Made by a program: the position numbers and the translations under genes. Below, piece after piece: positions 14,525 through 54,219 of a stretch of 54,668 nucleotides of DNA. Under the pieces are notes generated by a model, which saw only the letters and a list, made by a program, of their open reading frames with translations, made no database searches and had not been told where the DNA came from. Source of the DNA: a virus; IMG/VR virus record IMGVR_UViG_3300048592_000644, positions 1 through 54,668 of that record. One strand, given 5' to 3'. Position 1 is the stretch's first letter, and each line of letters opens with the position of its first letter.

Positions 14525-14548
14525 ACATCTCCTCAACAAATCATGTAA

Positions 14549-21631: not shown

Positions 21632-21645
21632 CTTGAATATTCAAG
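21632..21645. repeat. Dispersed palindrome CTTGAATATTCAAG, copy 4
   Basis: The full 14-bp consensus, filling the 20-bp gap between the tape measure stop and the distal tail start and overlapping the latter's only ribosome-site-like sequence. Confidence 0.75.
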
Positions 21646-24600: not shown

Positions 24601-26268
24601 TATACGGTTACGAATCCCCTCTAAAACCTCAATTGCCCCGGCAAGTTTGCCTTTGAGGTCAAATGTTTCAATGAGGGATGCACCAATATCTCCCAAAGCT
24701 AATTCAATGTTGTCTTTTAGGGTACTGAACAAACCAGACAACGTTTTAGATTGAGCCTCCATTAACCCGGCAAAGCGGCCACCCTCACCTGTCAGATTCT
24801 TAATAACCTGTTGTAAATCGCTGAAGTGCAACTGCCCATTTTCAGCCATTTTCTTGACTTGCGCCTCAGTCACCCCGTACATTTTGGCGAGTTCAGTAAA
24901 GATGGGGATGCCTCGGTTAGCCAACTCCATTAAATCCATTGTGTATAGAGTTTGTGATGCCCTGGCCTTCCCATATAACAAGGCTAATTCTTTGAGGGGT
25001 GCGCCCGTACCGGCCGCAATATCCCCTAAGCCCCGCATTTCATCAAACACTCCCTCTTGAGTGCTACCAAAAGCAATTAAAATCTTAGTGGCCTCTTGAA
25101 TGTCTGAGAATTGGAAAGGAGTAGCGGCCGAAAAAGATTTAATATCCTCAATCAAAACTTTGGCTTTTTCCGCACTCCCTAACATGGTGGCAAAAGCCAC
25201 TTCTAGTTGCTCGAAGTTAGCGGCCGTCGAAATCGCCGCTCCCCCGGCCAATGTGATAGGGGCGGTAACAAGCATAGAAAGTTGTCCACCAATTGACTGC
25301 ATGGTAGACCCGGCACTTTCCAGCTTAGATTTAAGTGCATCTAGTTTTTGGGACAGACTGGCTACTTGTGCCTCTGCCCCAGATGTATCAACCCCTAACC
25401 GCCCGTTTTTGTCTAGGGGGATGTTTTTAACCTTTTTGCCTAACCTATCAACGCTTTCTTCGGCCCCGGCCGTTTCAGCGTCTACCTTTGTTTTTTTGCG
25501 CCCTTTGGTTGTTTTCTCAATCTTTTGCTCTAAACCGTCTACTTTGGTTTCGGCTTCGGTTGTATCTACTTCTACTTTCGGTTTGCGCCCACGCTTTTTA
25601 CCAACTTTCTCAACAGCCTGTTCTAATTGTTCGGTTTGCTGTTGGGCTTTAGAAGTATCAATATCTATCTTTGGCTTATTAGCCTCAAGGGTTTGGTCTA
25701 ACTTCTCCCCTTGCTGTTCTAAGGCTTTTAACTTTTCTTGTGCTTTGAGGGTATCAATTTCTACCGAATCAGAAAACGCAAATGCCCCTTGCTGTTGCAA
25801 TGCTTGTATTTGCTGTTGGGCTTGAGAGGTATCTAAGGAGACAGGTTCAAAGTTAAAGGTAAGTTGTTTGGCGGCTAACTCATTTAACTTTTGCTCTAGT
25901 TGAGTGACTTGAGAAATGGCCTCTGTGGTGTCAACTTCTACTTTGGCTTTACGGGAACGCCCTTTTTTGGCGGGTGTTTCACCATCGGCCGTGGGCATCC
26001 CTTCCCCGGCCGGTGCAGGTGCTTTGGCTGTCCGTGTTTTTTGGTTGGCACGGTTTAAGGCTTCTGTGGCTTTGGTAAGCTGGTTTATTTGGGCTTGTAT
26101 TTTAGACGAATCAAAACCACCCTGTTCAAGAGAAGATAGGGTGTTCTCTAAATTCTTTAAGTGGTTATCTAATTTATCAAGAGCCTTTTTTGCCCCTTCT
26201 ATCCCCCGTTCAAAGGGAGAGTAGTCGAGGGCAATAATGCCGTAAGCAGAGCCAACATTAACAGCCAT
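21646..26268 (-). CDS. Tail tape measure protein
   Basis: A 1540-residue protein that sets tail length and guides tube assembly. The N-terminus (about 20-320) has at least seven short repeats around VDT-x-x-A, each followed by a coiled-coil segment. Residues about 335-560 match the tape measure N-terminal domain (FSAATPFQFSDIQEATKIL, LIAFGST, LMELANRGIP). Hydrophobic stretches near 565-640 (FLGIAAAIGPLLIGLGGLM) are probable membrane-inserting segments. Later parts are coiled coil and long amphipathic helices, with a Gly/Ser-rich region near 1430-1490. At about 0.15 nm per residue the tail would be near 230 nm. Confidence 0.95.
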   Translation of the reverse strand: MAVNVGSAYGIIALDYSPFERGIEGAKKALDKLDNHLKNLENTLSSLEQGGFDSSKIQAQINQLTKATEALNRANQKTRTAKAPAPAGEGMPTADGETPAKKGRSRKAKVEVDTTEAISQVTQLEQKLNELAAKQLTFNFEPVSLDTSQAQQQIQALQQQGAFAFSDSVEIDTLKAQEKLKALEQQGEKLDQTLEANKPKIDIDTSKAQQQTEQLEQAVEKVGKKRGRKPKVEVDTTEAETKVDGLEQKIEKTTKGRKKTKVDAETAGAEESVDRLGKKVKNIPLDKNGRLGVDTSGAEAQVASLSQKLDALKSKLESAGSTMQSIGGQLSMLVTAPITLAGGAAISTAANFEQLEVAFATMLGSAEKAKVLIEDIKSFSAATPFQFSDIQEATKILIAFGSTQEGVFDEMRGLGDIAAGTGAPLKELALLYGKARASQTLYTMDLMELANRGIPIFTELAKMYGVTEAQVKKMAENGQLHFSDLQQVIKNLTGEGGRFAGLMEAQSKTLSGLFSTLKDNIELALGDIGASLIETFDLKGKLAGAIEVLEGIRNRITDFVKTNPELAKMGFIFLGIAAAIGPLLIGLGGLMTMLSTAIGGLTALAGVFSGPVVIAFLAAGAALYALISDFERVQIAIEDMVNNIGQQFGSLQTTFGGNLGVIVGMFAGAVESVASYGSDLVTVFADGITSAVGVVVEALQYLGSIMTYWLQPNSPPRILPNLDLWGKGAADVYLQGWEKADFQTLQNFGSDIEKLLKTAVDLDQIGELDANKALMSLRDTMANAIEQINQTGSVSPEFFEQIKNTAGVAGEEVARLAELYLKQAEAQERVKKAQEAVASASEKLTAIQLAGAKETAGGGRKGKMSEQMRQQIRAAQNEKAAAEQQLQMAEQESSQAQDELDIFKERLNVATETRDLLAEQLKILEEMNKAGEEFAKKVGGAGKAALKALTTGIDEAVEKLKNAGKGMEGKSFWEQITEGLDEGKGKWQEILDNFRNENGEIDIAIILGKATGVDVEKLQERFDMVEKAAKRLWDTITDIGQGMANALSPVIEDALPDLEAAFTEIGLMLDPLSSLFADAFDGMSAIVSTALRAIAVILVTVIGGLIRGITAALPGIAQAIRGILEIFAGLVKMVKNAFGLIIDIFTGNWGTDEAQQKMEAMKEGFWMVLNGMWNIVSGVFSAIYGAITGFISGAATAAINYLLGLEGDSAKTWEEIKTSIYDAAKSIYDAVVLWVSKMYDAAVEWFTSIKDKAVEKWEAIKTTVAEKVALMVEAIKLLWNEFGVYWLGKLLSIYNDAVDKFEEVKTAVSTKIDELKTALMDKVTEILGIWTGLYDEMALAVNDKFGFIITAVSDKMTEVINTIKGFVSQFVTVGTELINGIRDGFVAGVAGFINAVSDAMGLAEDAAKEGGNKQDKDTPGGNSGSGGSSSSGQGNASTAADRPAGAASASTSNANRPPAGDTVAGMSGTRSTTNAPAGSNDPQMQQIINLLKEFLARPSSVSVIIEGQQAASLLQTATRGDIEAFAEKIADVIQRRRFSG

Positions 26269-30005: not shown

Positions 30006-30019
30006 CTTGAATATTCAAA
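30006..30019. repeat. Dispersed palindrome CTTGAATATTCAAA, copy 5
   Basis: Perfect TTGAATATTCAA core in the 38-bp gap between the last fibre paralog and the sulfotransferase, upstream of the latter's ribosome site. Confidence 0.75.
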
Positions 30020-37983: not shown

Positions 37984-40473
37984 TTAGGCGGTGACTTGTA
38001 CCCAACTGCCTTTTTGTGGCAATGGGCTAACCCGGCCGTTGTGTTCGCTAACATAGTAGTGCTTGGTATCCGTTGGGATAACATTGCTACCGCTAACGAT
38101 GTAATCTTGGTGCGGCCCGTCTAACAACATCGGCCGGAATACCCGGTGGGCAACCAATTCACGATTAACCACTAAGAGAGCCGGGAAAGAAGTGCCTAAT
38201 TTGGGGAACAGGTTGGTTTTGTAAATGGGCAAGCCTTTAATGCTACCCGCATAACCAGCCCCGTTCAGTGTGACCATACCGGGAGGCATAGGGTCATTGA
38301 ACCAGTTACCCAACACATCTGCCACAGAGTAAGAACACACAATGGCAGTGGCTTGATAGTTGCGCTCGTCAACCTTAACCCGCGCTCCACCAATGGCCCG
38401 TACTAAATCTTCTACGTCATCGGTGCTTGCAGACCATACCCCACCACGATTGCCGATAATGCTTTGAACGGCAGATAGGGCATGGTAGAAAATGGTTTCG
38501 TCAATCGTTTCCCGAATCCGAGAGATTAAGGAAAGGATGGAACGGGCGGTCGTGTCGTAGTTAATGGTCGAGATGGCATAAGCCTGAGCCTCGGCCGTAA
38601 CTTTGGTGGTTAAGCGCATGGCTTCAGTGGTGAGGGTCACAAAGTTTGTGAGGTTCTTACCAGAGCGAATGGCGTTGCCTTCACCGTTCCGTACCCGGTC
38701 ATACACATAATCAATTTCTAAGGCCAAAGGTAAAGCCCAAACATTGGCTGAACCATCTGGTTCCTCAGAGAGAATCATAATTTGCCCCAGGTCATGGTTG
38801 ATAATGTAATCATCTTGATAAACCAACGTGGTTGGCCCGGCCGTGTCCACTACGACAACAGAATCAATAACTACCGCTTTGTTGTCCAAGTTAACCCAGA
38901 CATCTTCGTCCGTCACCGCTACCGCTTCATTGGTCACAGTCACATAGCGGAGGGCATCGTCTTCGTAGGTTTCGTAGTAAATACGGGTGTCTGGGGTATC
39001 AATAACCCCAAAATCAAACACATTGGCCGCCACTAAGAGCGGGAAGGCTTGAGAGATAACAGCCCGCATGTAGCTGTAAGGGATGTTGAGGTCGGAGGTA
39101 GTGGATTCAGCATAGGCTTGAGCCTCTTTCTCCAAAGCCGCTTTATAAGTCTTGTCGTAATGAGCAAGGTATTGAGCGGTAAACACCTCAGCACGGTTTT
39201 TTGGCTTGCGGGGGTCAAAATGATTTTCAAGGTGAAGCGGGTTTTTCCGTTGGACAAAACTTTCTTCAAAAGCGTAAGAGGCCCGTGCAAACGCAGGTTG
39301 GCCGGTTTCGCTTTCAAAGGCAGTGCCGGAGTAGTTGACCCCTAACCCCCCCAAGTTTTGAGTAGCCATAGTAGCGGCGACTTTAGAGTACATAGAAACG
39401 TACTTCTTAATCACTTCGTTGGCTTCTTCAACGGTTTTGGGGTTTTCCGCTTTAATAGCGGCTGTCATTTGCTCATGCAATTCTTTGGCAAAGCGGGGTT
39501 TGGCTGTTTCGGATTCGATGTACTCACGGACTTGCCGGGTTTGGCTTTCTTGGCGAAGCTGTTCTAATTCGCGCATCCGTTGCTCAACGATAACGGTTAC
39601 ATCATCGTGGCTGTCGGCCCCTAACGCCTGAACCAACCCTTTTTGCCGTGCGGCTAAAGCCTCGGCAATGCGTTTTTGGTCGGCTTCTTTTTTCTCTTGT
39701 TCTTCTTTAATCTCTTGAAGAACTTCGGACTTTAATGACTTGCGCCGTTCCTCAGAGATTTGTTCAGCTTCACCGATAATGGCTTGATAAACAAGAGGGT
39801 AATCATTTTTCAACTGGTCTAAATTTTGTACGGCCGCTAAATCCTTGAGAGTAGGATTAGCCGGATTTGGAGGGGTAGGTACGGGCATTGGTTTGTTCTC
39901 CTGTTGCTGTTCAATAGCTTGGAAATTCTCTAACATGGCAATATTGGTAAAAGAAGCGTTGCTTACTAGGTCGAAGTTCATCAACTCTAGTTCCTCAACC
40001 TGCTCTATTGGTTCACCGTCCATGCTAATCTGCCGCCCCCACCCAGACCCAGATAAAGAGCCGGACGGGTACACTTTTGACTTCATAAGCATTAAGACGG
40101 ATTCACCAACCAAAGGGGTAGGAATAAGTGTTCCTACTAAGTGAACGGCACTGTGGCCGGGGAACTCTACGCTTTCCCCATACTCAAAGCGATTCCACTT
40201 AACAACGGTTTGCTTAAAATCCCGCTTAGAGGGGTGTTCAACCTCTCCCGTAAACTGCCCTGCTATCTCATTTGACCCATAGATATTTGACGGGTTGGCT
40301 GATAACTTGCGAAGGGCATTTTCTACCGCCTGTTGGGTGTAAATCCGGCGGTTGCGGTTAATTACGCCTACTACAATTGCATCTTTGATGCGAACAGTAG
40401 GCAAACCGTTCTCCTCTTTCAGAGAAAATTGGGATGGTTCAATGCTCTCTACTAATTTTTTTAGTTCGGACAT
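37984..40473 (-). CDS. Prohead protease-scaffold-major capsid fusion protein
   Basis: A single 829-residue protein carrying three normally separate functions. Residues 1-185: T4 gp21/S80-type prohead protease with His80 in GEVEHP, Ser139 or Ser141 in YPSGSLSGSGWG, and NFDLVSNASF. Residues about 190-345: Pro-rich hinge and long Glu/Lys/Gln coiled coil, a typical scaffold. Residues about 345-829: HK97-fold capsid protein, with an inserted beta domain (about 520-590, DDYIINHDLGQIMIL) and the end KHYYVSEHNGRVSPLPQKG. Assembly would place protease and scaffold inside the shell, followed by self-cleavage. The gene follows its own promoter and leader terminator. Confidence 0.85.
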   Translation of the reverse strand: MSELKKLVESIEPSQFSLKEENGLPTVRIKDAIVVGVINRNRRIYTQQAVENALRKLSANPSNIYGSNEIAGQFTGEVEHPSKRDFKQTVVKWNRFEYGESVEFPGHSAVHLVGTLIPTPLVGESVLMLMKSKVYPSGSLSGSGWGRQISMDGEPIEQVEELELMNFDLVSNASFTNIAMLENFQAIEQQQENKPMPVPTPPNPANPTLKDLAAVQNLDQLKNDYPLVYQAIIGEAEQISEERRKSLKSEVLQEIKEEQEKKEADQKRIAEALAARQKGLVQALGADSHDDVTVIVEQRMRELEQLRQESQTRQVREYIESETAKPRFAKELHEQMTAAIKAENPKTVEEANEVIKKYVSMYSKVAATMATQNLGGLGVNYSGTAFESETGQPAFARASYAFEESFVQRKNPLHLENHFDPRKPKNRAEVFTAQYLAHYDKTYKAALEKEAQAYAESTTSDLNIPYSYMRAVISQAFPLLVAANVFDFGVIDTPDTRIYYETYEDDALRYVTVTNEAVAVTDEDVWVNLDNKAVVIDSVVVVDTAGPTTLVYQDDYIINHDLGQIMILSEEPDGSANVWALPLALEIDYVYDRVRNGEGNAIRSGKNLTNFVTLTTEAMRLTTKVTAEAQAYAISTINYDTTARSILSLISRIRETIDETIFYHALSAVQSIIGNRGGVWSASTDDVEDLVRAIGGARVKVDERNYQATAIVCSYSVADVLGNWFNDPMPPGMVTLNGAGYAGSIKGLPIYKTNLFPKLGTSFPALLVVNRELVAHRVFRPMLLDGPHQDYIVSGSNVIPTDTKHYYVSEHNGRVSPLPQKGSWVQVTA

Positions 40474-40622
40474 TTGTTACATCCTCTTTTACGGAAACGC
40501 AGGTTACGCAAGTTCCGGGCGGCTCTCCTTAACAGGTCGGAGTTTGCTGGGTCGCGCAATGAAGCATCACCGTATATAGGTGAATCTGTGGTAGTAATTG
40601 TTTGGCTTGTTTTTTTCTTCAT
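40461..40622 (-). CDS. Small basic protein upstream of the capsid gene
   Basis: 53 residues starting at ATG 40622 (MKKKTSQTITTTDSP), with AGAGGT upstream, and overlapping the capsid start by 13 bases. Strongly basic C-terminus (RRAARNLRNLRFRKRGC). It is the first ORF after the leader terminator at 40655-40698, so it may act as a translated lead-in for the capsid gene. No family is recognised. Confidence 0.5.
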   Translation of the reverse strand: MKKKTSQTITTTDSPIYGDASLRDPANSDLLRRAARNLRNLRFRKRGCNKCPN

Positions 40623-40654
40623 TACATACCTCTCGACAAAGGGCAATAGGCAAC

Positions 40655-40698
40655 AAAAAAGCGGTCTGCAAGCGGAAAAATTTCCACTCGCAGACCGC
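40655..40698 (-). terminator. Intrinsic terminator in the capsid leader (attenuator candidate)
   Basis: GCGGTCTGC (40661-40669) pairs with GCAGACCGC (40690-40698), with an inner GGAAA/TTTCC stem; a T6 run follows on the minus strand. It lies between a near-consensus promoter (40731-40759) and the capsid ORFs. Flanking GCAATAG (40643-40649) and CTATTGC (40716-40722) could pair around it. Confidence 0.85.
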
Positions 40699-40726
40699 AG
40701 TATGTTACGGGGGTCTATTGCGATGC

Positions 40727-40740
40727 CTTGAATATACAAG
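40727..40740. repeat. Dispersed palindrome variant CTTGAATATACAAG on a promoter -10
   Basis: One mismatch from the family consensus. Its centre is the TATATT -10 box of the leftward promoter at 40731-40759, exactly where a repressor or regulator would act. Confidence 0.7.
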
Positions 40741-40759
40741 ATTCGCTGTAATATGTCAA
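40731..40759 (-). promoter_or_regulatory. Internal promoter for the capsid genes with operator-like palindrome
   Basis: Leftward TTGACA (40759-40754), a 17-base spacer and TATATT (40736-40731), two bp after the upstream gene ends. The -10 forms the centre of a dispersed palindrome variant. Transcripts would start near 40724 and meet the hairpin at 40655-40698 after about 25-65 bases. Confidence 0.85.
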
Positions 40760-40760
40760 C

Positions 40761-41096
40761 TTATCGGCTGTTTCTTTCGCTCTTACTTGGAATGGTGCGC
40801 TCTACCCCCATTTGATTTTCCATAAAGCCTAACTCCATAATCAAAATGCGCCTTTTTTGTTCCAAAAACTCTTTGGGCATACAGGTTAACCCGCCTACAC
40901 TTTCGGCTATCATCATTGCCCATCGGTCGGGGTCTACGGTCGGCGGCCGGTTGAGAGCGAAGTCAGCCACCACTACCTGCATAATGAGAGAAAGCCGCTT
41001 TACCTCCATATCAAATAGAGCGATTTGAGCGGCGTTGGTTAAGGCACTGTTTTGTTGGGTATTGAGGGCAGTGTCATCAAAGCTAATGCGGGGCAT
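40761..41096 (-). CDS. Hypothetical helical protein between morphogenesis and capsid genes
   Basis: A 111-residue helical protein (NSALTNAAQIALFDMEVKRL, then WAMMIAESVGGLTCMPKEFL) with no recognised family. It ends two bases before the capsid promoter. A small head assembly factor is possible from position only. Confidence 0.55.
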   Translation of the reverse strand: MPRISFDDTALNTQQNSALTNAAQIALFDMEVKRLSLIMQVVVADFALNRPPTVDPDRWAMMIAESVGGLTCMPKEFLEQKRRILIMELGFMENQMGVERTIPSKSERNSR

Positions 41097-41103
41097 ATCT
41101 TAC

Positions 41104-42387
41104 CTACCTGTTCAGGGTATCTAACATTTCATCTGGGTCAGCCAACAGCCAAAATAAAAATACGGCGGAAATAGCCAATAAGTTACGCCAAGCCTTTCCC
41201 CAACTTTCCCCTTTATCCACGGTCGGGGGTTGAATCCCCAAAAAAGCCATGTAATTATCTATTCTAGGATATGCCCCGGTCATTGCCAATCCCATTAAAG
41301 GCTCACCAAAAGCCATGCTAAAGGGTAACTCACCGGCCGGGGGGAGCAATGGTTCTCGTTTTTTAGGGTCAACTCCCACCCATTGCGCCAGTTGTGCCAA
41401 GAAACTATCCTCATCCTCATATTGCCCCACTTTGTAGCAGAGGCAAAGCACATGAATAGGCAACTTAATTGTGCCTAATTGGTAAATACCCTTGCCACCT
41501 TCACCACCAGTTACCACTGTCTCACACTCGCAACCTATGGGGGGATGTTGAGCCGATAGGTAAATACGCTCTTTGGTGATGTATGGCTGTTGCTCTAAGA
41601 GGTAGTCATTCATGGCATGGTGAATGGTTTGAATTTCATTCCGTGCCAACCGTAAAGCATTATAAGATACCCCTTTAGCACTGCATGGTTGCCCATCTTC
41701 TTTGCGAAGTAGCCCCGCCTGACTACCGGCCGCTATAGCGGCTTTAGAGGTACGGTCTAATCGTTCCCTTGTCCACCTGCGGCAATTCTGATTTGCTCCT
41801 AAAAACTGCTCTAGCTCTCTGGCTGTTTCCCATGCTCCTTTGCCCACTGAGTTGAATAATACTTTTTCTATCCCCGCCCAACTTTGGTTATCTAACTTCC
41901 ATATTCTAGCTGATAGGTTTAATCCATCAGGGTACACCCGCTCCCTTGTCTGGTTAATAAATTGGTTTAACTCTGGGGTAAATGGTATTTGCCCTATCCC
42001 GGCCGGGAACGCTTCTTTAACATCCCCTCTTTGGTATGGTTCGGGGCCAATAAAGCGGAAATGATTCCGGGCCACGGCCGCAAAGGGTATGGCAACGGCA
42101 TTTTGTAGGCCGTTGGCTAGTGCCTGTTCGTACTTAGCAAAAGCCGCTTTCCACTCCTCTTTTATAATGCGTGAGGCGGGAAGTACCTCATTAGAATCTA
42201 GTAACCCGTTTGGGCCAGCCTGGTCAATGACAATCTTTTGCGCCTTAGCACTGAACTCACCAAATATTTGATGAACGGTAGCAGTCATAATTAACTGTAA
42301 CCGCATTAAAGCACTGTTTTGGGCAGTGCCTATTTGCTTGCTGGTGTAATTCAAAATATCAGTTGGATTAACCATTCTTTTTATCAT
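41104..42387 (-). CDS. Head morphogenesis protein, Mu gpF/SPP1 gp7-like
   Basis: A protein of about 427 residues (start at 42387 or four codons later at MVNPTD). The C-terminal half contains the hallmark of the SPP1 gp7/Mu F family: ALRLARNEIQTIHHAMNDYL, then ERIYLSAQHPPIGCECETVV and LPIHVLCLCYKVGQ, the pattern of His and Cys residues around a small zinc-like core, and a hydrophobic C-terminus. Family members are minor capsid proteins that stabilise packaged DNA or act with the portal. The order portal to this gene to capsid is as expected. Confidence 0.7.
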   Translation of the reverse strand: MIKRMVNPTDILNYTSKQIGTAQNSALMRLQLIMTATVHQIFGEFSAKAQKIVIDQAGPNGLLDSNEVLPASRIIKEEWKAAFAKYEQALANGLQNAVAIPFAAVARNHFRFIGPEPYQRGDVKEAFPAGIGQIPFTPELNQFINQTRERVYPDGLNLSARIWKLDNQSWAGIEKVLFNSVGKGAWETARELEQFLGANQNCRRWTRERLDRTSKAAIAAGSQAGLLRKEDGQPCSAKGVSYNALRLARNEIQTIHHAMNDYLLEQQPYITKERIYLSAQHPPIGCECETVVTGGEGGKGIYQLGTIKLPIHVLCLCYKVGQYEDEDSFLAQLAQWVGVDPKKREPLLPPAGELPFSMAFGEPLMGLAMTGAYPRIDNYMAFLGIQPPTVDKGESWGKAWRNLLAISAVFLFWLLADPDEMLDTLNR

Positions 42388-42610
42388 GCTGTTGGTTGAT
42401 AGAATCTATCCAACCCAACACCCCGGCCGCCGCCACCAATAAGCAGATTGAAACAACCGCCTCTATATCAAAATCAACCATTTTAAATGGGATACCGCAA
42501 ATAATAGACATGGCTAACAAAAAAGTAACCCCGGCCGTGAAGCCGGAAACACGGGGGAGTTTAGGGTAGGTTATGTTGACTTGTACGGGTTGTGGTTCGT
42601 TCTCGTTCAT
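42368..42610 (-). CDS. Small two-helix membrane protein in the head cluster
   Basis: An 80-residue protein with two hydrophobic segments (about 22-42 and 50-66) and short charged ends, a holin-like layout (KKNG at the C-terminus). It overlaps both neighbours. With the LLH-type gene it gives two holin-like candidates in the head region. Function unproven. Confidence 0.55.
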   Translation of the reverse strand: MNENEPQPVQVNITYPKLPRVSGFTAGVTFLLAMSIICGIPFKMVDFDIEAVVSICLLVAAAGVLGWIDSINQQHDKKNG

Positions 42611-42825
42611 GTTGTCACTGTTATACCCACAGTCATATTGCGGGTATCTAGGGGTATGAGCCAGTCATCTTCACCCGGCCGGGCGTGTTGCCCATAAAAC
42701 AAAATAAACCGATAGGTGGTGTGTCCGGCCGATGTTCGGGGCAACTTTACTTGGCTGTTGTGTTGCTCTATGGCCTCCACTACGGCTTTACTCAACGGGT
42801 ACGGAAGGGAGGTGAAGTTATCCAT
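42607..42825 (-). CDS. Small hypothetical protein
   Basis: A 72-residue protein with ordered strands (TTYRFILFYGQHARPGEDDW, TVGITVTT). No ribosome site is evident upstream, and the 99-bp gap before it (42826-42924) shows no other ORF or hairpin. It overlaps the membrane gene by four bases. No family is recognised. Confidence 0.5.
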   Translation of the reverse strand: MDNFTSLPYPLSKAVVEAIEQHNSQVKLPRTSAGHTTYRFILFYGQHARPGEDDWLIPLDTRNMTVGITVTT

Positions 42826-42924
42826 AAAATTCTTTGGGACAGGACAATTTTGGGGGTGGTTAGGGTGAGTATGCTTGAGGCATGGGTACTTGACGGCCTT
42901 ACTATTTTGTATGGGGTGGTTGAA

Positions 42925-43236
42925 TTAGTTCCCTTCGGTTTCCGTTTCATTTTCCATTACCGCAATAACATCATGCGCCCGAATCAAAATCATTTGCACC
43001 CCATTTAATTTAACCCGTATTCCGGCTAATTTATCAAAAATGATATTGTCCCCCACCTCTACATCCGGCCGGAGGCGCACCCCTTTTTTGCTAAACTTGC
43101 CACGGCCGACACTGTAAACAATGCCCTCATTCTTATACCCTGTTTTAGTGGGGATAATGAGGCCGGAGGGTGTGGCCTCCTCCATTTTCTTTGGGGCCAC
43201 TAAAATACAATCACCATATGCCAGTAAAGAAGTCAT
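42925..43236 (-). CDS. groES: GroES-like co-chaperonin
   Basis: A 103-residue protein with the Cpn10 pattern: LLAYGDCILVAPKKMEEATP, SGLIIPT (mobile loop with the GroEL-binding I-x-I/L-P), NEGIVYSVGRG, VEVGDNIIFDKLAGIRVKLN, MILIRAHDVIAVMEN. Phage co-chaperonins such as T4 gp31 adapt host GroEL for folding capsid subunits. The position between portal and capsid genes supports this, and the large fused capsid protein may need it. No GroEL is present, so host GroEL is the presumed partner. Confidence 0.9.
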   Translation of the reverse strand: MTSLLAYGDCILVAPKKMEEATPSGLIIPTKTGYKNEGIVYSVGRGKFSKKGVRLRPDVEVGDNIIFDKLAGIRVKLNGVQMILIRAHDVIAVMENETETEGN

Positions 43237-43665
43237 CTATTCCCCCTTTGGAATGTCTATAATTTCCCCATAATCATTTAGCTTTTTTTCAAACAACTGT
43301 TTAAGCAACTCTTTTAGCTTTCTCAGTTGCCCTAATTGTACGCTAATGGTGTGAGTGTCAGCGATGCGCCCATGAACCTGCTCTTGTAATTCAATCTTTG
43401 CCATTATTTCCCCAAACAGGCTTTGTATTGAATCTTGAACATTCAAGTCAGAGTTGACCCGGCCGATTAAATCACCTATCACAGCTTTTAAGGCATGGTT
43501 CTCCCCACTCACTTCTATTAGCTTCAGTGCCATATCCCGCACATAAGCCATAGACACATAACTAAGCGATTCACAAACAACTTGGCCTTGTACCATCACT
43601 ATCCACAATGAACCCATTTGCTCTAGGCTAACAAGGGGCTGTTCGGCCGGTTGATTATCACTCAT
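43237..43665 (-). CDS. Hypothetical helical protein in the head cluster
   Basis: A 142-residue, mostly helical protein with a hydrophobic N-terminal strand pair (GSLWIVMVQGQVVCESLS) and a long amphipathic C-terminal helix (QLGQLRKLKELLKQLFEKKL). Oligomerisation is likely; function unknown. The palindrome at 43434-43447 lies inside and encodes LNVQ. It overlaps its upstream neighbour by eight bases. Confidence 0.55.
   Translation of the reverse strand: MSDNQPAEQPLVSLEQMGSLWIVMVQGQVVCESLSYVSMAYVRDMALKLIEVSGENHALKAVIGDLIGRVNSDLNVQDSIQSLFGEIMAKIELQEQVHGRIADTHTISVQLGQLRKLKELLKQLFEKKLNDYGEIIDIPKGE
43434..43447. repeat. Dispersed palindrome CTTGAACATTCAAG, copy 8
   Basis: Perfect family member inside the 43237-43665 gene, encoding LNVQ in frame. 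Confidence 0.7.
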
Positions 43666-44359
43666 CGTTTTTCACCTTGTCTTGTGGTCTAACTCTGGCC
43701 TTACGCGCCGGGGTTGCAATGGCTTGTGGCTCAGGCTCAGGTTCGGGCGTTGGTTCGTCTGGGGCGGGTTGGGCAATAAGGGAGTTAAACATATAACGAA
43801 TAGCATAGGCCAATTCTAAGGCACTACCGGCCGGGGCCGGGGGAACTTTGCCATAAGCCACTTGCACCAAATTAACCCCTTGCATATCGTGAGCCGCTAA
43901 CAAGTGGTCTAAATCACTCTTGATGTTGGTACGGTCTAATTTGCCTAACAACCCCCCACTGCCCAAATTAAGCCGGGCAAACTGTAATTCGGCCGCCACA
44001 CCATGAAGCACAAGGCTTTCTTTAGAGGGGTATGGTTCAAGCCAAAAAGCCAGGGCAGTGGCAATCCCTTGAGGGTGGGAGATAACGGCGGTAACGCTCT
44101 CTCCTAGCTGGTGTTCGTTGACAGCTAGGTACGGCCGGAGGCGATTTTCACGGTTGCCTACATGGGCTTGAGCTTCCTCTGCGCGGTTGGCAAAGCTAAA
44201 GGCTGACAGGTTAGCTTGTCCGGCCGGGCAAAGATTTTCAGGCAAATAGCCGATTCGTTCAGCATAAAACGCCCGGCCGGTATCATCAATTACCGCTAAC
44301 GACAATAAACCGCTCGGAGCGCGGTTATCTACCGGGAAAGAAGCAATGTAAAGGTTCAT
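43658..44359 (-). CDS. Hypothetical head-cluster protein after the portal gene
   Basis: A 233-residue protein. The N-terminus (YIASFPVDNRAPSGLLSLAV) and the Ala/Leu-rich middle with ISHPQGIATALAFWL could form an alpha/beta fold resembling RNase H-like proteins, but catalytic acids are not obvious. The C-terminal 45 residues are disordered (EPTPEPEPEPQAIATPARKA). It follows the portal gene by eight bases. No family is recognised. Confidence 0.5.
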   Translation of the reverse strand: MNLYIASFPVDNRAPSGLLSLAVIDDTGRAFYAERIGYLPENLCPAGQANLSAFSFANRAEEAQAHVGNRENRLRPYLAVNEHQLGESVTAVISHPQGIATALAFWLEPYPSKESLVLHGVAAELQFARLNLGSGGLLGKLDRTNIKSDLDHLLAAHDMQGVNLVQVAYGKVPPAPAGSALELAYAIRYMFNSLIAQPAPDEPTPEPEPEPQAIATPARKARVRPQDKVKNDE

Positions 44360-44367
44360 TTTAAGGT

Positions 44368-45879
44368 TTACTCCTCTGTATCATCGGTATCATCCTCTGG
44401 CTGTTCATCTTGAGTGTCGGCCGGGGGAGCAATAGTTCTAGTTGGTAATTTAGGGGGAATGTTGGGTTGGCTGACTAAGTTAGCCATACGGTTAGTTGGG
44501 TCGGGGAAAGGTGAGGCTATCTCTAAAGCATACGCCTGTTGTAGTTCCTCAAGGCTGACATGGGGGAGCAAAGCGGAAACAATTTTTAGAATAAGGCTAT
44601 CCCCTATAACCATTGTTCCCCGCAAAGAGGCTACGGCTTGCCCCACGTCTATCAATTCGCGGGGGGTTAGTTGGGAGGTTTGTTTCCGGGTAATGGTGTA
44701 GGGGTTGAGTGGGGGAAAAACACCATTTAAATAGAAATGCCTGTCTATGAGAGGCTCAATAAACTGCGCTCCCATCCAATCTACACCATCAGCTACGGCT
44801 TGCCGATATTGCTTGCTTTTTTGTTCTAAAATATCTCGGTTAATGTTTTTGGCGTAACCGATAAGTTCAAGTGGGGTCATAGCCACAATAGCCCCTGTTT
44901 CAATGTGGTGCATAATGTCACCAATGCGGTCAAGCATGGAATCACCCTGAAACTCTTTGTAACTTTCGTTGCCAGAGGCTGTAGTAAAAATGTCTAAGAT
45001 AGAAGCCAAGTTATCAAAAGAAACATTAAGCGTTTCTTTGTTGGCCTCGCGGTACGCTTTTACTGTGGCCTCGCTAACATCTGACAGGGTGTGAACTCTT
45101 GTTTTACCCCCACTCATAGCCCGACGAACAGCCACATCGTCCCATCCCCGGCTTGCCCGGCGAAAAGCACCAATAGCTGAACGGAGTTCCGGCCGCCCGT
45201 ATGGGTTGCGGGGTGTGTTTTGCGGGTTGTTTTTGCCCCAAACAACTAGAAAAAGCGGGTAAAAAACGGCTTCCCCCCCGGCCATGCTCCCAAATTCTTG
45301 CACCTGAAACGCTTTAGAGCGGTCAACAAAGTGACCCCGGCGGTTGAGTACCGGCTTTACATCTAATGTTTCAAATGGGTCAATACGGGTAATTTGCCGG
45401 AGCTTCGTATCTACCCCAACCTCAAGAAAATAATCCCCGTCTATCTTGGCTTGTAAGCACCACTCATAAGTACGGGAATTAACCTTTAAATCTTCCATGA
45501 AGTTGTCAGCTAACTCTTGGGCTTGTCGCTCGGCTATTGCCCCCGGCTGTACCTGAATAACGTACTCTCCCCTGGTGATGTCCACGGCCGATGTTTTTAA
45601 TAAGGCTTCATAAATGGGGTTTTGGTCAAACTGCTTGCGACTTTCAATGATAACCCGTTGCCTTTCGCTTGGCCCCTGCATCATAGCGGCCGCATTTTCG
45701 GCATTAGGTTTTTGGGTGTAGGCCGGGGCAATATAATCTTGCGTGTTTTGTAGTTGATTGCCTTGAGAAACAATTAACTCTGCCCCACGGCCGGGGTTAT
45801 CTTTGCTTTGTCGGCCGACAAGCGTTTGCACAATATTCAATATAGCTTGCACTACCGGGGGTAAATCAAACCGTTCCAT
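44368..45879 (-). CDS. Portal protein
   Basis: A 503-residue portal, the dodecameric ring through which DNA is packaged. Visible pattern: ESRKQFDQNPIYEALLKTSA, then DGDYFLEVGV, RIDPFETLDV, NPYGRPELRSAIGAFRRASR, a long stem-like helical region with YAKNINRDILEQKSKQYRQA, and GAQFIEPLIDRHF. The C-terminus is acidic and disordered. It lies downstream of the terminase and upstream of the morphogenesis genes, the normal order. The palindrome family has no copy here. Confidence 0.85.
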   Translation of the reverse strand: MERFDLPPVVQAILNIVQTLVGRQSKDNPGRGAELIVSQGNQLQNTQDYIAPAYTQKPNAENAAAMMQGPSERQRVIIESRKQFDQNPIYEALLKTSAVDITRGEYVIQVQPGAIAERQAQELADNFMEDLKVNSRTYEWCLQAKIDGDYFLEVGVDTKLRQITRIDPFETLDVKPVLNRRGHFVDRSKAFQVQEFGSMAGGEAVFYPLFLVVWGKNNPQNTPRNPYGRPELRSAIGAFRRASRGWDDVAVRRAMSGGKTRVHTLSDVSEATVKAYREANKETLNVSFDNLASILDIFTTASGNESYKEFQGDSMLDRIGDIMHHIETGAIVAMTPLELIGYAKNINRDILEQKSKQYRQAVADGVDWMGAQFIEPLIDRHFYLNGVFPPLNPYTITRKQTSQLTPRELIDVGQAVASLRGTMVIGDSLILKIVSALLPHVSLEELQQAYALEIASPFPDPTNRMANLVSQPNIPPKLPTRTIAPPADTQDEQPEDDTDDTEE

Positions 45880-46132: not shown

Positions 46133-47791
46133 TCAAACATTATCAAAACCAGTTTGTATGTCTTTTTTAAGGCTTATAATTGCCGTCTCAGGGGCAAGAG
46201 AAGCCATTAAACAGTAGTTTTCGGCATGGGCAAAGTGGTCGGCTTCCGTTTCAATATAAACGCTCCGGCCGTTCTTTATTTGCCTCAGTGGTGCTTTTAG
46301 TTGTGAATAATAGCGGGGAATGGAATCAGCATTGCCCGGCAAAGCGTTCTCTCTGGCTCTAAATCTGGAATAGGTGAGGTCGAGGGTACGGGTGCGGTCG
46401 GCGACAACTATCATATCTTCCTCATTCCACTCAACTGAAGCCACACCCCTCAACCCATCGGGGCTGGTGTGGTAACGGCAAAGCCAAACCCGCCCCCGGC
46501 CGTATTGCGCCTGTATCCCCCGCACCATATTTGTTTCCGGGCCTATGTCGAATACTGCCCGTTTAACCTTGTAGACGCTCATAAGGAGCGGAATATCAGA
46601 AGGTTGGGCTTCTGTGGCACACAGTAAAGGTCGTTTGCCTTGCTCATTTAATGGGGCGCGAATAATGACATGAAGCACCTTGCCCACGTCCACTCCCATT
46701 AAATTACCGCCTCCGGCCGGGCCGGGGAGATAACCCATTTTACAGGCGTTCAAATCCTCATCGGTTAGACGGCCACCTCTCGGAGAGTAGGGTAATCCTA
46801 AATCCTGATTCCAACATTCACGGATTTTAGATTCATCAAACGATTGTAAGGCTTGCACCATCTCTTTAAGGGGGCTACGGGGGTAGCAAAGTTTGGTTGG
46901 GTGGAATCCCACTAAGTCATTGCTTCTACTTGGATACTTAGCCACCCACCGGCCGGGGGATTTGCGGTCTAAAATCTTGTGGCACTTTTTACAACAGCAA
47001 AGATACTGGTTAATCTTTTGCCCATACCACGCTATGGGCTGTTGGTCGTGATTCCAGTCAATGACCACATTGTTAATGTCTATCTCTTGCCATGTGCCAC
47101 AATGAGGGCATTTTAAGCACCATACTCTTTGGTCTGACTGCATCCATTCAGCATGGATACCAATAGAGTTAAACGTAGGGGTTGAGAGGCTTAGTTCCTC
47201 TGCTATAAGAGAGTGACCTAACCGTTTTGAAACTAAATCCTTTACCCTGGGGTTCATCACATCTACTTCATCCCTTACCCCTATATCGGCATCAATAGAG
47301 CGTAACTGAGAGGCGTTTCCCTCAGTATCAATCTTCCCCCCTCGAAAGGTTATGAAGTTGTCTCTCACCCGCTTCATGGTCACTCTGTCGGCCCCGCCCT
47401 CCCCGGCATTGACCACTAAAGAAGCGAGATAGGGACTGCTTTTTAAGGCTGGCCCAAAGCGTTTTTGTGAAAAATCGCTTACATCCCCATCGGTTGGCAT
47501 AACATAGAATACATCAGCCTTTCTTACGTCACATGACCACAAGGCACGATTAACCGCATATTCGCTAAGGCCAAGTTGCCCCCCTTTCATTAAGACAATC
47601 TTTTTGGCCTCACACTCATAAATGCCCCTTAAAAACTGGTGATGCTCCAGGTCAAAGGCAAGGTTAGGTTTAATGAGCGGCCGGTGCTTGATTGTCCATT
47701 CCAGCAAACCCATATATTTGCGGCCGGTCTGAATGTTTACCCGCCGCAGTTTTTCATCTAGTGCTGTAATGAGTTCGTGAGTTTGGTTCAT
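46133..47791 (-). CDS. Terminase large subunit, GpA type
   Basis: A 552-residue packaging ATPase-nuclease. The deviant Walker A KGGQLGLSEY (about 69-78), the DADIGVRDEVD region (Walker B-like), a zinc-ribbon-like pair CLKCPHCG and CCCKKC (about 230-275), and the nuclease segment LMGVDVGKVLHV fit the lambda gpA (Terminase_GpA) family. These cut and translocate concatemeric DNA, usually at cos sites, though headful relatives exist. The ribosome site is poor, and the palindrome at 47796-47809 occupies its place, so translation or transcription may be regulated there. Confidence 0.9.
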   Translation of the reverse strand: MNQTHELITALDEKLRRVNIQTGRKYMGLLEWTIKHRPLIKPNLAFDLEHHQFLRGIYECEAKKIVLMKGGQLGLSEYAVNRALWSCDVRKADVFYVMPTDGDVSDFSQKRFGPALKSSPYLASLVVNAGEGGADRVTMKRVRDNFITFRGGKIDTEGNASQLRSIDADIGVRDEVDVMNPRVKDLVSKRLGHSLIAEELSLSTPTFNSIGIHAEWMQSDQRVWCLKCPHCGTWQEIDINNVVIDWNHDQQPIAWYGQKINQYLCCCKKCHKILDRKSPGRWVAKYPSRSNDLVGFHPTKLCYPRSPLKEMVQALQSFDESKIRECWNQDLGLPYSPRGGRLTDEDLNACKMGYLPGPAGGGNLMGVDVGKVLHVIIRAPLNEQGKRPLLCATEAQPSDIPLLMSVYKVKRAVFDIGPETNMVRGIQAQYGRGRVWLCRYHTSPDGLRGVASVEWNEEDMIVVADRTRTLDLTYSRFRARENALPGNADSIPRYYSQLKAPLRQIKNGRSVYIETEADHFAHAENYCLMASLAPETAIISLKKDIQTGFDNV

Positions 47792-47795
47792 GGTG

Positions 47796-47809
47796 CTTGA
47801 ATGTTCAAG
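47796..47809. repeat. Dispersed palindrome CTTGAATGTTCAAG, copy 9, before the terminase
   Basis: Perfect family member in the 20-bp gap between small and large terminase genes, ending five bases before the large-subunit start codon. Confidence 0.75.
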
Positions 47810-47811
47810 GT

Positions 47812-48495
47812 TTATAACTCGAAGTCTACCACATCGGCCGTGGCCTCATTTTCTTGCGGTTGTCTGTTTGGTTCTAGTCGGCCGGTATCTACAAATTCAG
47901 CATCTATGATGGGGTTATTCCGCTCGGATTGACCACTGAACAATACCTCTACTAAATCAATATCATCTTCATCTGGGGTTGTGGCCTGGGCAGTAATAAG
48001 CGCAAGGTTTTTAATGTGTACCTGTAGTGCTTCATCGCTCATACCCGCCAAGCGGTGATTAATGTCAATTTGTCCGCTCACTAATTGATTAACTTGCCCA
48101 TCTAAGGTGGCTTGTATTCTAGTAATACTTTTCCAACGTTCCGGCGCACGGTTGTACAAAAGTACCTCCATTGCTCTTGTGTCGCCTGACATGCCCTTGA
48201 GATAAAGAGAATCTTCTATATCTTCTACCCGGCTATCTTTGGCCTTGTCAGCTAAAGCGGCAAAAATTGGGTTAGCCAATCGCTCTTTACGGTAGGTTGA
48301 GGTATCTATACCGCACAAAGCGCAAGCGGCATCTACCGTCTTGCAGTCATTAAGCAACTCAAGAAACATGGCTTGCATTTTAGGCGTGAATCTTTTTTTG
48401 CGCCCGGCCCCTTTCGGGTTTTTTGGTTTTTCTTTTTTCTCGCTTTTTTCACTTTGGGGGTCGGCCGGGGGAGTAGCTTTCTTTTTTCTAGGCAT
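47812..48495 (-). CDS. Terminase small subunit (probable)
   Basis: A 227-residue protein directly upstream of the large terminase. A Lys-rich N-terminus precedes an HTH-like region (about 38-75, LELLNDCKTVDAACALCGID followed by TSTYRKERLANP), typical of terminase small subunits that bind packaging sites. A helical oligomerisation region and an acidic tail follow. The call rests on position and this HTH. Confidence 0.75.
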   Translation of the reverse strand: MPRKKKATPPADPQSEKSEKKEKPKNPKGAGRKKRFTPKMQAMFLELLNDCKTVDAACALCGIDTSTYRKERLANPIFAALADKAKDSRVEDIEDSLYLKGMSGDTRAMEVLLYNRAPERWKSITRIQATLDGQVNQLVSGQIDINHRLAGMSDEALQVHIKNLALITAQATTPDEDDIDLVEVLFSGQSERNNPIIDAEFVDTGRLEPNRQPQENEATADVVDFEL

Positions 48496-48498
48496 GGG

Positions 48499-49203
48499 TT
48501 AAATCTCGTTTTCCTCAAAAGACACACTTTCGCCATGTTCTAGCCAGTCAGACAAACTTTCTTCCATGGCCATCTGTAACATTCTCACATTGCTCTTGAG
48601 GGTTTTCACATTAGCATCTATTTTAACTACGCTTACTGGTTGCCCGTCTATCACAAAACAGACTACGGCCGCCTCCTCATTTTTGGCTATTACCTCAGCT
48701 ACTTTCTTGCTCACTCTTTGGGCTATTTTTAGCACATCGGCTTTTAGCTTCATGCTTTCCCGCCCTTGCTCCACCCGTTGCTCTTGCATCATTTTCATTA
48801 TTTCTACGGTGGGATGCCGGAAAATATCTAGTTTGGCTAGGGTTAACTCTTGAGCGTCAATGATTTGTTTTAGCTTTTTCTTACTGGTTTTGCCATGAAC
48901 GGTGTTGAGGTTGTTTACTAAATTAAACTTCTCCTCTTTAGACAAGTTTCCGGCAAAAACATTGCAAACAATACTGTCATGGCCTAAATTCCCCCATTCA
49001 GTTATGCGGTGTCGGCCCCCAAGCACCTCATACCCATCCTCTTTCTTGAGTAAAGAGGGTAAGGTAACAGGGAGGCCAATACCCTCTAATTCAGATGATA
49101 GGCGTTGCCTTTGGCTATCATCCATCTCATTTGCGCTGAACTCACTCCAAGAAATGTTTTCTAATGGCACTTCATAAGTGCCAACATACTGTAACTTTGA
49201 CAT
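48499..49203 (-). CDS. ParB/sulfiredoxin-like protein, first gene of the late operon
   Basis: A 234-residue protein. Residues about 8-90 match the ParB N-terminal domain (VPLENISW, then ELEGIGLPVTLPSLL, VLGGRHRITEWGNLG with GGRHR at 62-66). The rest is helical with KTSKKKLKQI and a C-terminal coiled coil, not a standard ParB HTH. Such phage proteins may bind DNA, hydrolyse CTP or act as nucleases; no ParA is present. The start has AGGGG upstream. It could be the binder of the dispersed palindromes, but nothing in sequence proves it. Confidence 0.75.
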   Translation of the reverse strand: MSKLQYVGTYEVPLENISWSEFSANEMDDSQRQRLSSELEGIGLPVTLPSLLKKEDGYEVLGGRHRITEWGNLGHDSIVCNVFAGNLSKEEKFNLVNNLNTVHGKTSKKKLKQIIDAQELTLAKLDIFRHPTVEIMKMMQEQRVEQGRESMKLKADVLKIAQRVSKKVAEVIAKNEEAAVVCFVIDGQPVSVVKIDANVKTLKSNVRMLQMAMEESLSDWLEHGESVSFEENEI

Positions 49204-49265: not shown

Positions 49266-49294
49266 AAAAAACACCTCGTCAGAGGTGTTTTTTT
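49264..49294. terminator. Bidirectional terminator at the early/late boundary
   Basis: Stem ACACCTC/GAGGTGT with loop GTCA, extended by A and T runs on both sides. It separates early-type transcription from the late operon. Confidence 0.9.
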
Positions 49295-49311
49295 CTATTA
49301 ACTTAACTTCA

Positions 49312-49405
49312 CCCTTAGTCATCGGAGATGCCTGGTCATGGGGCTTTTGCATAACCCGAACTTTTGGAGGTTCTTTAATGGGTTAAGTGACCTAACGACT
49401 AAAGG
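49312..49405 (-). ncRNA. Candidate structured RNA downstream of early unit
   Basis: On the minus strand 94 bases fold on paper into nested stems: outer 49397-49405 with 49312-49320 (nine pairs; the plus-strand C/A mismatch becomes a U-G wobble on the minus strand, favouring that strand); 49388-49392 with 49334-49338; 49380-49384 with 49353-49357; 49370-49373 with 49358-49361 (loop containing CUCC); and a small hairpin 49320-49330. It contains GCAUCUCC, the exact complement of the GGAGATGC ribosome-site class. It lies 11 bases after an early gene and 18 before the terminator. Alternative: a plus-strand 23-codon ORF at 49338-49409. Confidence 0.45.
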
Positions 49406-49415
49406 ATAAATCTGA

Positions 49416-49613
49416 TTATACTTCGCTTTCGGGGTTGGTCAACATGGTTTTGTTAGCGGCCGCAATTCTTTCTAAAACCGTTTGGCAATCCTGCATGACC
49501 TCACTTAGAATCTCGCTAAAGTACCGCTCATTACTTTCCCGCCTCTCCGCCATACCCGATACGATATTTTGTAATATCCAGGGAACGCCCTCTCGGTCTG
49601 CCCATTCCAGCAA
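49416..49613 (-). CDS. Small protein in frame with an upstream amber stop (second half)
   Basis: About 65 residues from TTG at 49613 (LLEWADREGVPWILQNIVSG, then a helix to the C-terminus). There is no ribosome site upstream. The frame continues directly from the 49623-49751 ORF across a single TAG (49623-49625) via F-G-A. Either the two form one gene read through the TAG, or a nonsense mutation split it, or the second half starts on its own. It is followed by the candidate structured RNA. Confidence 0.5.
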   Translation of the reverse strand: MLEWADREGVPWILQNIVSGMAERRESNERYFSEILSEVMQDCQTVLERIAAANKTMLTNPESEV

Positions 49614-49622
49614 AGCCCCAAA

Positions 49623-49751
49623 CTATACCTTTCGCTCCCCATGTACGCAGGTGCGGTGCTGGTGATGGTTAAAGTAACTATGTCGAAACAAAGCCTCTAA
49701 GATGTTTCTTTGGGTGTCATTCAACACCCCGTCCCATAATTTCTTGTTCAT
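49623..49751 (-). CDS. Small protein ending in an amber codon (first half)
   Basis: 42 residues from ATG 49751 (MNKKLWDGVLNDTQRNILEA and onward), ending at TAG 49625-49623; the frame reopens at once into the 49416-49613 ORF. It begins 46 bp after the 49798-50061 gene with no clear ribosome site. No family is recognised. A product of about 110 residues would result from read-through. Confidence 0.45.
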   Translation of the reverse strand: MNKKLWDGVLNDTQRNILEALFRHSYFNHHQHRTCVHGERKV

Positions 49752-49797
49752 ATTAAGAGGGAGTGCCGGGTTTACCCGCCCGGCCGGGCTAATAAAA

Positions 49798-50061
49798 CTA
49801 CTCAGTGGCAGAAAGAGGGTTAAAGTCACGGTAAGACGAAAGGGGCAGTGCCTTTTCATCGTAATAATCAACTGTTTTCGCAAAGTATTTGTCGTGGACT
49901 TTAACATAGCAATCTGTTTGTGTACCCCACTGGAACTCCATACAGAAAAACCGTTGGGTAAAGCCGTATTCGTCGGAGTTCCAAGAGAGCGGGGGAAGTT
50001 GCCCTAAAGCATCAAACCATTGCTCCTCTGTAATTTCCTTAAAACCGTTTAGTTCGTTCAT
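49798..50061 (-). CDS. Hypothetical early protein behind promoter P4
   Basis: An 87-residue protein, acidic and aromatic-rich (ITEEQWFDALGQLPPLSWNS, then FFCMEFQWGTQTDCYVKVHD). AAAGGAGATGCT precedes the start. It is the first gene after promoter P4 (50099-50127). No family is recognised. Early, short, acidic proteins of this kind often act on the host, which is only an analogy. Confidence 0.65.
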   Translation of the reverse strand: MNELNGFKEITEEQWFDALGQLPPLSWNSDEYGFTQRFFCMEFQWGTQTDCYVKVHDKYFAKTVDYYDEKALPLSSYRDFNPLSATE

Positions 50062-52983: not shown

Positions 52984-53509
52984 TGTTCACCCCACCTTTA
53001 TCTTGAATATTCAAACTTAATTCAATCTTCATAGAATCCCGTAGCCGGATGGGGAACTCGGCGGCCGGGAACTCGTGGTGAAGGCGATTGACCAGCACTT
53101 CCTCAACCGTTTTTACCGCTAATTGATTAGTGAGGTGAAACAGGCCCCGGCACACAATAGTCGGCCGGGTAAGGCTTGCCCTTTTCGTTACCTCGAAAAC
53201 AGGGGAGGCCATATCAACCCTGATGCCGCTCATGCCTAAAAAATGCAACTGGTAAGGCTCAGGCCGTGCGGCCGATGAAACAACAGTGTTCACTAAGTTA
53301 GGGTTACAAAAGGCAATATCAAAGTTATGCCCCACCCACCCGTCCTTTTGCGGAAAAAGAGTGCTTAACTTGTGCCGGGCGTTGCTTCTTACGTCCTTTT
53401 CGTCGGCCGAATGTAAGGCATGAAGGGAGATGTATAACCTCATACCATATTTTTCCTCTCGACGTGCGGCACTCAGTACCATGCCATAGAGGTTGCGTTC
53501 TTTGCTCAT
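52976..53509 (-). CDS. Hypothetical early protein next to the ClpP-like gene
   Basis: A 177-residue alpha/beta protein (NLYGMVLSAARREEKYGMRL, LFPQKDGWVGHNFDIAFCNP, then TRPTIVCRGLFHLTNQLAVK). The start overlaps the protease stop (ATGA), so the two are coupled. It contains the palindrome at 53002-53015, encoding LNIQ near its C-terminus. No family is recognised. Confidence 0.55.
   Translation of the reverse strand: MSKERNLYGMVLSAARREEKYGMRLYISLHALHSADEKDVRSNARHKLSTLFPQKDGWVGHNFDIAFCNPNLVNTVVSSAARPEPYQLHFLGMSGIRVDMASPVFEVTKRASLTRPTIVCRGLFHLTNQLAVKTVEEVLVNRLHHEFPAAEFPIRLRDSMKIELSLNIQDKGGVNNE
53002..53015. repeat. Dispersed palindrome CTTGAATATTCAAA, copy 10
   Basis: Perfect TTGAATATTCAA core near the 3' end of the 52976-53509 gene, encoding LNIQ in frame. 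Confidence 0.7.
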
Positions 53510-54219
53510 ACTTCATCTCCCCCATAACGTGCCTCACGCGCCTCCATAACACCCCCACCTTTTGCTAAGGGTACATTACTGGCTTGGCGGGGGGGTATCC
53601 CACCAATCACGGTATCCACCATCCCATAGGCCAACGCTTCCCCGCCCGTCAGCCATGTTTCCCGTTCCAGCATATCTGCGATTTTTTCACGGGTAACATT
53701 AGAGCGGAGGGCATACAGGTCAATCGCCTGTTGGTAAACGTACTCAATGACCTTTGTGGTGTCCTTTATCTCCCGATATGTGCCTAAGATTAAGCCTCGT
53801 GGGGGATGGATAAGAAACAAGCTGTTACTGGTGGCAAAACGTTGGTTACAGACCAAATAAATGAGCGTTCCGGCACTTGCCACCAAACCCTCATTAAACG
53901 CCCAAATTTCGTTAGTTGTGAGGCTGTTTAATTCACTGGCAAAAGATAGGGCAATTAACGCCTCTCCCCCGGCCGTGTTGATATGCAGTCTAATGGGGAT
54001 GTCTACGTTCAGTTGGTATTCAGCCTTAAACCGTTCTATGCGGCGGTCGGCCTCAATCAACTCCTTTCGTAAACTCAAAATTGTTTCCGGGGTGATGTCC
54101 TGGTAAAAGAAAATATCAACCCCGCTCCCACCACTTATAGGGGCTGGTGGAGGGGCAATCGGTGAATCAGAATCGTTATTGTGCGGGGGAACTAAACTAC
54201 TTAATTTAGGTAAATTCAT
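53506..54219 (-). CDS. ClpP-like serine protease
   Basis: A 237-residue protein. After a disordered Pro/Ser N-terminus (1-33), residues 35-207 follow the ClpP fold: DIPIRLHINTAGGEALIALS, nucleophile Ser115 in GLVASAGTLIYL, His138 in FLIHPPRG, and LERETWLTGGEALAYGMVD. In ClpP the last motif normally reads ERD with the catalytic Asp; here it is Glu187. The gene lies in the early-type region, not beside the portal, and the capsid gene has its own protease domain, so a role in virion maturation is unlikely. Modification of host Clp function or a weakened protease is possible. Confidence 0.85.
   Translation of the reverse strand: MNLPKLSSLVPPHNNDSDSPIAPPPAPISGGSGVDIFFYQDITPETILSLRKELIEADRRIERFKAEYQLNVDIPIRLHINTAGGEALIALSFASELNSLTTNEIWAFNEGLVASAGTLIYLVCNQRFATSNSLFLIHPPRGLILGTYREIKDTTKVIEYVYQQAIDLYALRSNVTREKIADMLERETWLTGGEALAYGMVDTVIGGIPPRQASNVPLAKGGGVMEAREARYGGDEV

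Follow-up and report, generated by a model that had tools for sequence, protein, structure and literature searches.

The DNA analysed here, the window, is the whole of an IMG/VR virus record of 54.7 kb (54,668 nt) from an uncultured tailed phage, and its minus strand carries almost all of the genes. Read from high to low coordinates, the map is as follows.

53506-54219, minus strand: ClpP-type head maturation protease
Between the ClpP-type protease and the terminase genes: small genes
47812-48495, minus strand: terminase small subunit
46133-47791, minus strand: terminase large subunit
41104-45879: head genes
40761-41096, minus strand: head-region gene of 111 aa directly upstream of the capsid promoter, without a family match
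40461-40622, minus strand: 53-aa ORF (ATG at 40622, SD GAGAGG) of no family, overlapping the capsid start
37984-40473, minus strand: fused prohead protease/major capsid protein, 829 aa
Below the capsid gene in coordinates: tail genes, including the tape measure (21646-26268)
After the tail genes, toward low coordinates: multi-HTH proteins, thymidylate synthase, DHFR, an HNH protein and a lysis-type SLT/M23 protein

The 829-aa protein aligns with the “putative phage capsid protein and protease” of Rctr41k (30% identity over 99%) and with about 110 IMG/VR proteins, most of them around 30% identical; the “capsid” label is therefore right by homology, and the earlier note's placing of capsid ORFs after a leader terminator is borne out, with the 53-aa ORF coming first. 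The phage has this ClpP-type protease and, separately, a protease domain as part of the capsid fusion. No close relatives of the phage were found in single-protein scans of viral contigs with the capsid and terminase proteins, a scan of the capsid alignment against genomes for prophages gave no match, and a plasmid search and a nucleotide search of phages returned no relatives.

The leader of the capsid gene

Between the 111-aa gene and the 53-aa ORF lies a compact set of elements:

40754-40759, minus strand: -35 element, TTGACA
40731-40736, minus strand: -10 element, TATATT, after a 17-bp spacer
40724, minus strand: transcription start, predicted from the sequence at 7 nt past the -10 element
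40716-40722, minus strand: heptamer GCAATAG, the 5' arm of an outer stem, which includes an AATAG box
40661-40698, minus strand: intrinsic terminator hairpin, 17 bp, -31.5 kcal/mol
40655-40660, minus strand: U6 tract of the terminator
40643-40649, minus strand: heptamer CTATTGC, the 3' arm of the outer stem

The promoter (TTGACA-17-TATATT, 40759-40731) scores 11/12 against consensus and lies, as claimed, inside the late operon directly after the upstream gene, with a -35 element that starts one base past the stop codon. Four sites in the whole window reach at least 11/12, each on the coding (minus) strand, against 1.7 expected from mononucleotide shuffles, so the score by itself is not significant; the weight of the promoter call rests on its position and context. 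Start site, promoter strength and termination efficiency were predicted by E. coli-type rules, which may not be those of the host; what the sequences themselves show is the elements, how they compare with chance, and that their layout recurs in relatives.

About 26 nt past the predicted start begins the stem of the terminator, which occupies 40698-40661, is followed immediately by the U6 tract, and outranks every other terminator of the window (-31.5 kcal/mol, vs. -19.9 kcal/mol for the next best); here the original description holds. The two heptamers, together with GUAACA/UGUUGC, make a 13-bp outer helix in the minimum free energy fold, and the whole 82-nt leader becomes one hairpin of -44.5 kcal/mol (z -10). 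So extended a structure could serve in processing or stability of the capsid mRNA, as a target of RNase III or by protecting the 5' end, a role we consider very unlikely: the terminator stem gives most of the energy, and the U6 tract directly behind it is the signature of termination. The gain from the outer helix was equalled by 11 of 2000 shuffled flanks and by 619 of 5000 genomic flanks (12%), and is thus only modestly unusual and statistically weak. The heptamers are present and able to pair, as had been suggested, but their pairing cannot itself decide termination, because it can form only once RNA polymerase has passed the terminator; with its 3' arm beyond the terminator and such weak statistics, the outer stem was rejected as the main regulatory switch. 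Rfam gave nothing relevant.

The layout of promoter, leader and terminator has a second copy in the window, before the terminase operon:

49415-49442, minus strand: main late promoter (TTGACC-16-TATAAT), ahead of the terminase operon
49266-49293, minus strand: terminator of the structured main-late leader, ahead of the gene at 48499-49203

The capsid unit is thus separate from the main late promoter, as the earlier note had it. The main-late leader (49293-49412, minus strand) is highly structured, with nested GGTCA/TGACC and AACCC/GGGTT stems and a CUCC loop.

Capsid and late-operon leaders in related phages

Terminators of -25 kcal/mol or stronger within the 150 nt upstream of the start were found for 8 of the 67 capsid genes sampled, which come from related contigs that are partly redundant, and for 11 of 716 other ORFs. 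The eight loci fall into five leader-sequence groups besides that of the window, and a sigma-70-like promoter lies ahead of the terminator in every group except L009, where the terminator is present and no clear promoter is seen. Leaders L029, L034 and L081 have TTG[C/A]AA-17-TGGTAAGCT and a terminator in common, the stem of which shows a compensatory change from G-C to A-U; L094 has TAGACA-17-TGCTACACT and a terminator; L114 and L116 have TTGAC[G/C]-16-TATAAT and a terminator, with leaders about 90% identical and capsid proteins 71% identical; and L013 has TTGACA-18-TAAGAT and a terminator. What is conserved in these leaders is the promoter and the terminator. Most relatives of the capsid lack such a unit, their capsid gene coming only tens of bases after the terminase.

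A promoter and a terminator spaced as in the window could also delimit a gene for a small phage RNA of about 70 nt, made next to the capsid gene, the capsid being transcribed by other means; the spacing fits, and the lambda pR'-tR' pair likewise gives rise to 6S RNA. A trans-acting RNA would be expected to be conserved, however, and in L029/L034/L081 it is the promoter and terminator that are kept, whereas the leader between the promoter and the stem is poorly conserved; the window terminator, moreover, also stands where late transcripts from upstream would run into it, and the putative RNA has no Rfam match. We regard a small-RNA gene as quite unlikely.

Among the other ORFs, 22 terminators reach -20 kcal/mol or stronger, and most of these belong to a late-operon leader. 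It stands some 4 kb upstream from the capsid gene, ahead of the gene for a small membrane protein that we call holin-like on the basis of its size, membrane segments predicted by eye and position rather than a family match. The order of elements there is a CTTGACA-17/18-TAAAAT promoter, a leader stem-loop whose pairs covary freely, a GAGAT box, a terminator, and the holin-like first late gene, an order shared with lambda pR'-tR'-S. A covariance model of this leader (R1) matches 22 relatives, Rctr41k included, 14 of the 22 having been used in building it; records with the structured leader at this distance of some 4 kb from the capsid gene include L003, L004, L005, L007, L008, L018, L020, L021, L027, L031, L052, L068, L071, L072 and L083. 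Both R1 stems keep their pairing through double changes, in an alignment that is model-fitted and holds some antisense terminator copies. The R1 leader has no match in Rfam, and comparison of the window leaders with R1 gave no window match at E<=1. Within the promoter spacer, where a Q-binding element would lie, AGAACAAATG is common to several relatives and does not occur in the window. In the initially transcribed region, where a -10-like sigma-dependent pause element would be expected, AATA is enriched: the motif stands 7-17 nt past the -10 element in 12 of 25 leaders, a pattern chosen post hoc and only a lead; for a strict -10-like hexamer the capsid leader of the window scores 0.

The R1 element was absent from the six records searched that have a capsid unit, as was the late-promoter pattern from the genomes with such a unit, and L010 and L012 lack the unit of L013 although L013 shares about 75% identity with each of them in the capsid protein. 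From the absence of R1 and the patchy occurrence among L010, L012 and L013, the capsid unit looks to have been gained and lost as a module.

The same comparison bears on whether the hairpin is simple operon punctuation, ending the upstream head operon or tuning stoichiometry, with constitutive partial readthrough and no regulated antitermination. Terminators inside late operons are common, and a strong capsid promoter could supply enough readthrough. Against this, a terminator that insulates should stand ahead of the next promoter and would not be expected to separate a promoter from its gene; the 17-bp stem with U6 predicts little readthrough; and the promoter-then-terminator order recurs at the start of late operons in the 22 relatives. 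Punctuation of this kind therefore appears unlikely.

Dispersed palindromes and the capsid -10 element

The -10 element of the capsid promoter is contained in a 14-bp palindrome, CTTGAATATACAAG (40727-40740; CTTGTATATTCAAG in the minus-strand reading), and its reported membership of a dispersed palindrome family was confirmed. Allowing up to 2 mismatches, CTTGAAYRTTCAAG has 15 sites in the window, compared with a mean of 0.6 and a maximum of 3 in 100 dinucleotide shuffles; a separate test of the palindrome family gave 35 matches against 5.4 expected. The family was trimmed from 15 to 13 members by leaving out 5313, a poor match, and 779-792, which was rejected as an operator copy, the palindrome CTCGAATATTCGAG (773-798) being the stem of a terminator. 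Five of the 13 are intergenic, compared with 3.3% of positions (p=4e-5, a value that depends on the ORF choice made), and eight lie mainly inside genes. Several occupy gaps of 20-40 bp adjoining start codons; members between genes include:

47796-47809: palindrome in the gap of 20 bp ahead of the terminase start
30006-30019: intergenic palindrome
21632-21645: palindrome in the gap between the tape measure and the next gene

The copy at 40727 alone has a good -35 element in register (11/12, compared with 5-8 for the other copies). By our own rough estimate, the chance of a palindrome overlapping one of the four strong promoters is about 1%.

Repression at the capsid -10 element by a palindrome-binding protein is plausible but unproven. 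The palindromes may instead be sites for partition, packaging or a host factor, their overlap with the -10 element being incidental; this bears on the repression step only, and we give it a substantial chance, somewhat short of even. Twelve of the 13 sites are not linked to a promoter, and no repressor or other palindrome-binding protein was recognised among the window proteins scanned, both of which agree with such a role and also make stoperator-like blocks to elongation, or another DNA-binding role, conceivable; the intergenic enrichment, the sites filling short gaps by start codons and the low chance of promoter overlap argue for operators. Two adjacent proteins (12477-13016 and 13013-14539, minus strand), each with several weak matches to HTH families, are possible candidates for a multi-HTH regulator that binds the palindromes. 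Another HTH protein is encoded at 6885-7175, and small ORFs lie at 49416-50061 beside the late promoter. A search of the relatives brought out no comparable family of dispersed palindromes, and the palindrome at the -10 element of L094, TAGTGCTACACTA, is not dispersed.

The conserved inverted repeats of phiC31 are also dispersed, and there they are repressor sites, some of them overlapping promoters; phiC31 is a different genome, as far as known with another site sequence, and no phiC31-type repressor was found here. Operators and stoperators of the mycobacteriophage L5 type are many near-identical repressor-type sites spread genome-wide, some at promoters and some in short intergenic gaps (PMC9283540). 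The window palindromes are likewise many, near-identical and dispersed, and we infer that the copies away from promoters would fit stoperator-like blocks; L5 sites, however, are 13-bp, asymmetric and oriented with transcription, whereas those of the window are 14-bp palindromes without orientation, only one of which is at a promoter.

Palindromes of the CCGGCCGG type are also very frequent throughout the window (52 sites within 2 mismatches of CCCCGGCCGGGG), an abundance that somewhat resembles HIP1 in cyanobacteria.

Antitermination as a proposed control of the capsid gene

On the minus strand the unit reads promoter, leader, strong intrinsic terminator, 53-aa ORF and capsid gene. Unmodified RNA polymerase starting at the capsid promoter would be expected to stop after the hairpin, giving an RNA of about 70 nt, and polymerase arriving from the upstream late operon would stop there too; because the terminator would also halt main-late transcripts, expression of the capsid would need readthrough on either route. 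Late in infection polymerase would be made resistant to termination and the capsid gene expressed, probably through a phage antiterminator that loads at the promoter or in the leader, much like lambda Q at pR'-tR'. A palindrome-binding protein would probably block the capsid promoter at its -10 element as a second, initiation-level lock; in a lysogen or in early infection it may also halt elongation at the other sites. Relief by antitermination is the best reading of the terminator, because a terminator between promoter and gene recurs at late-gene entry points, as in lambda pR'-tR'. Taken as a whole, promoter-proximal termination relieved by antitermination, with a probable -10 block by a palindrome binder, has in our judgement slightly better than an even chance of being how the capsid unit works. 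Against it weigh the lack of such a unit in most capsid relatives and in L010 and L012, the terminator of L009 with no clear promoter, the window leaders that do not match R1, the failure to recognise an antiterminator or repressor among the window proteins scanned, and a promoter score no rarer than chance over the window. Of the two-step control envisaged in the earlier note, attenuation or antitermination is thus supported by the recurrence in relatives and by the second unit of the window, and repression at the -10 element is left as plausible.

A close likeness is to the lambdoid pR'-tR'-Q systems of lambda, 21 and 82, in which a promoter is followed by a close intrinsic terminator in a short leader before the late genes; the holin-like first gene of the 22 relatives has its counterpart in lambda S. 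Unlike in those phages, the unit here also precedes the capsid gene, and the window proteins scanned, though Q proteins differ greatly from one another, yielded no Q homologue or other antiterminator family; nor was a Q-binding element or a -10-like pause element established. The 21pR'-21tR' region and its Q requirements have been described (PMC6606751). In AlpA of Pseudomonas and GafYZ of the Caulobacter GTA, a promoter-loaded factor takes polymerase past downstream terminators, and GafYZ combines the control of initiation with antitermination on a cluster of virion genes (PMC9371919; PMC11150451); these are systems of other hosts, and no homologue was recognised here.

More broadly, the phage group may have an antitermination system of its own, unrelated in sequence to known Q and acting at modular cassettes placed at the start of the late operon or at the capsid gene, and in the present phage a repressor of the 13 palindromes may further lock both the capsid promoter and elongation; we hold this wider proposal to be doubtful. 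The cultured systems known to control their late genes by antitermination are few: lambdoid phages, AlpA and the Caulobacter GTA. If antitermination does act here, it would be a main late switch in a phage group that is large and almost wholly uncultured, and would include a checkpoint specific to the capsid; the conserved leader sequences would be direct entry points to whichever protein or RNA lifts the block.

Elsewhere in the window, three further minus-strand promoters (52085-52040, 50115-50080 and 8084-8040) have the initially transcribed motif TATAACTTAA in common, and their upstream sequences are alike, with GTAACRCAAA in two of the three; together they have the look of a coordinated early group, separate from the two late promoters.
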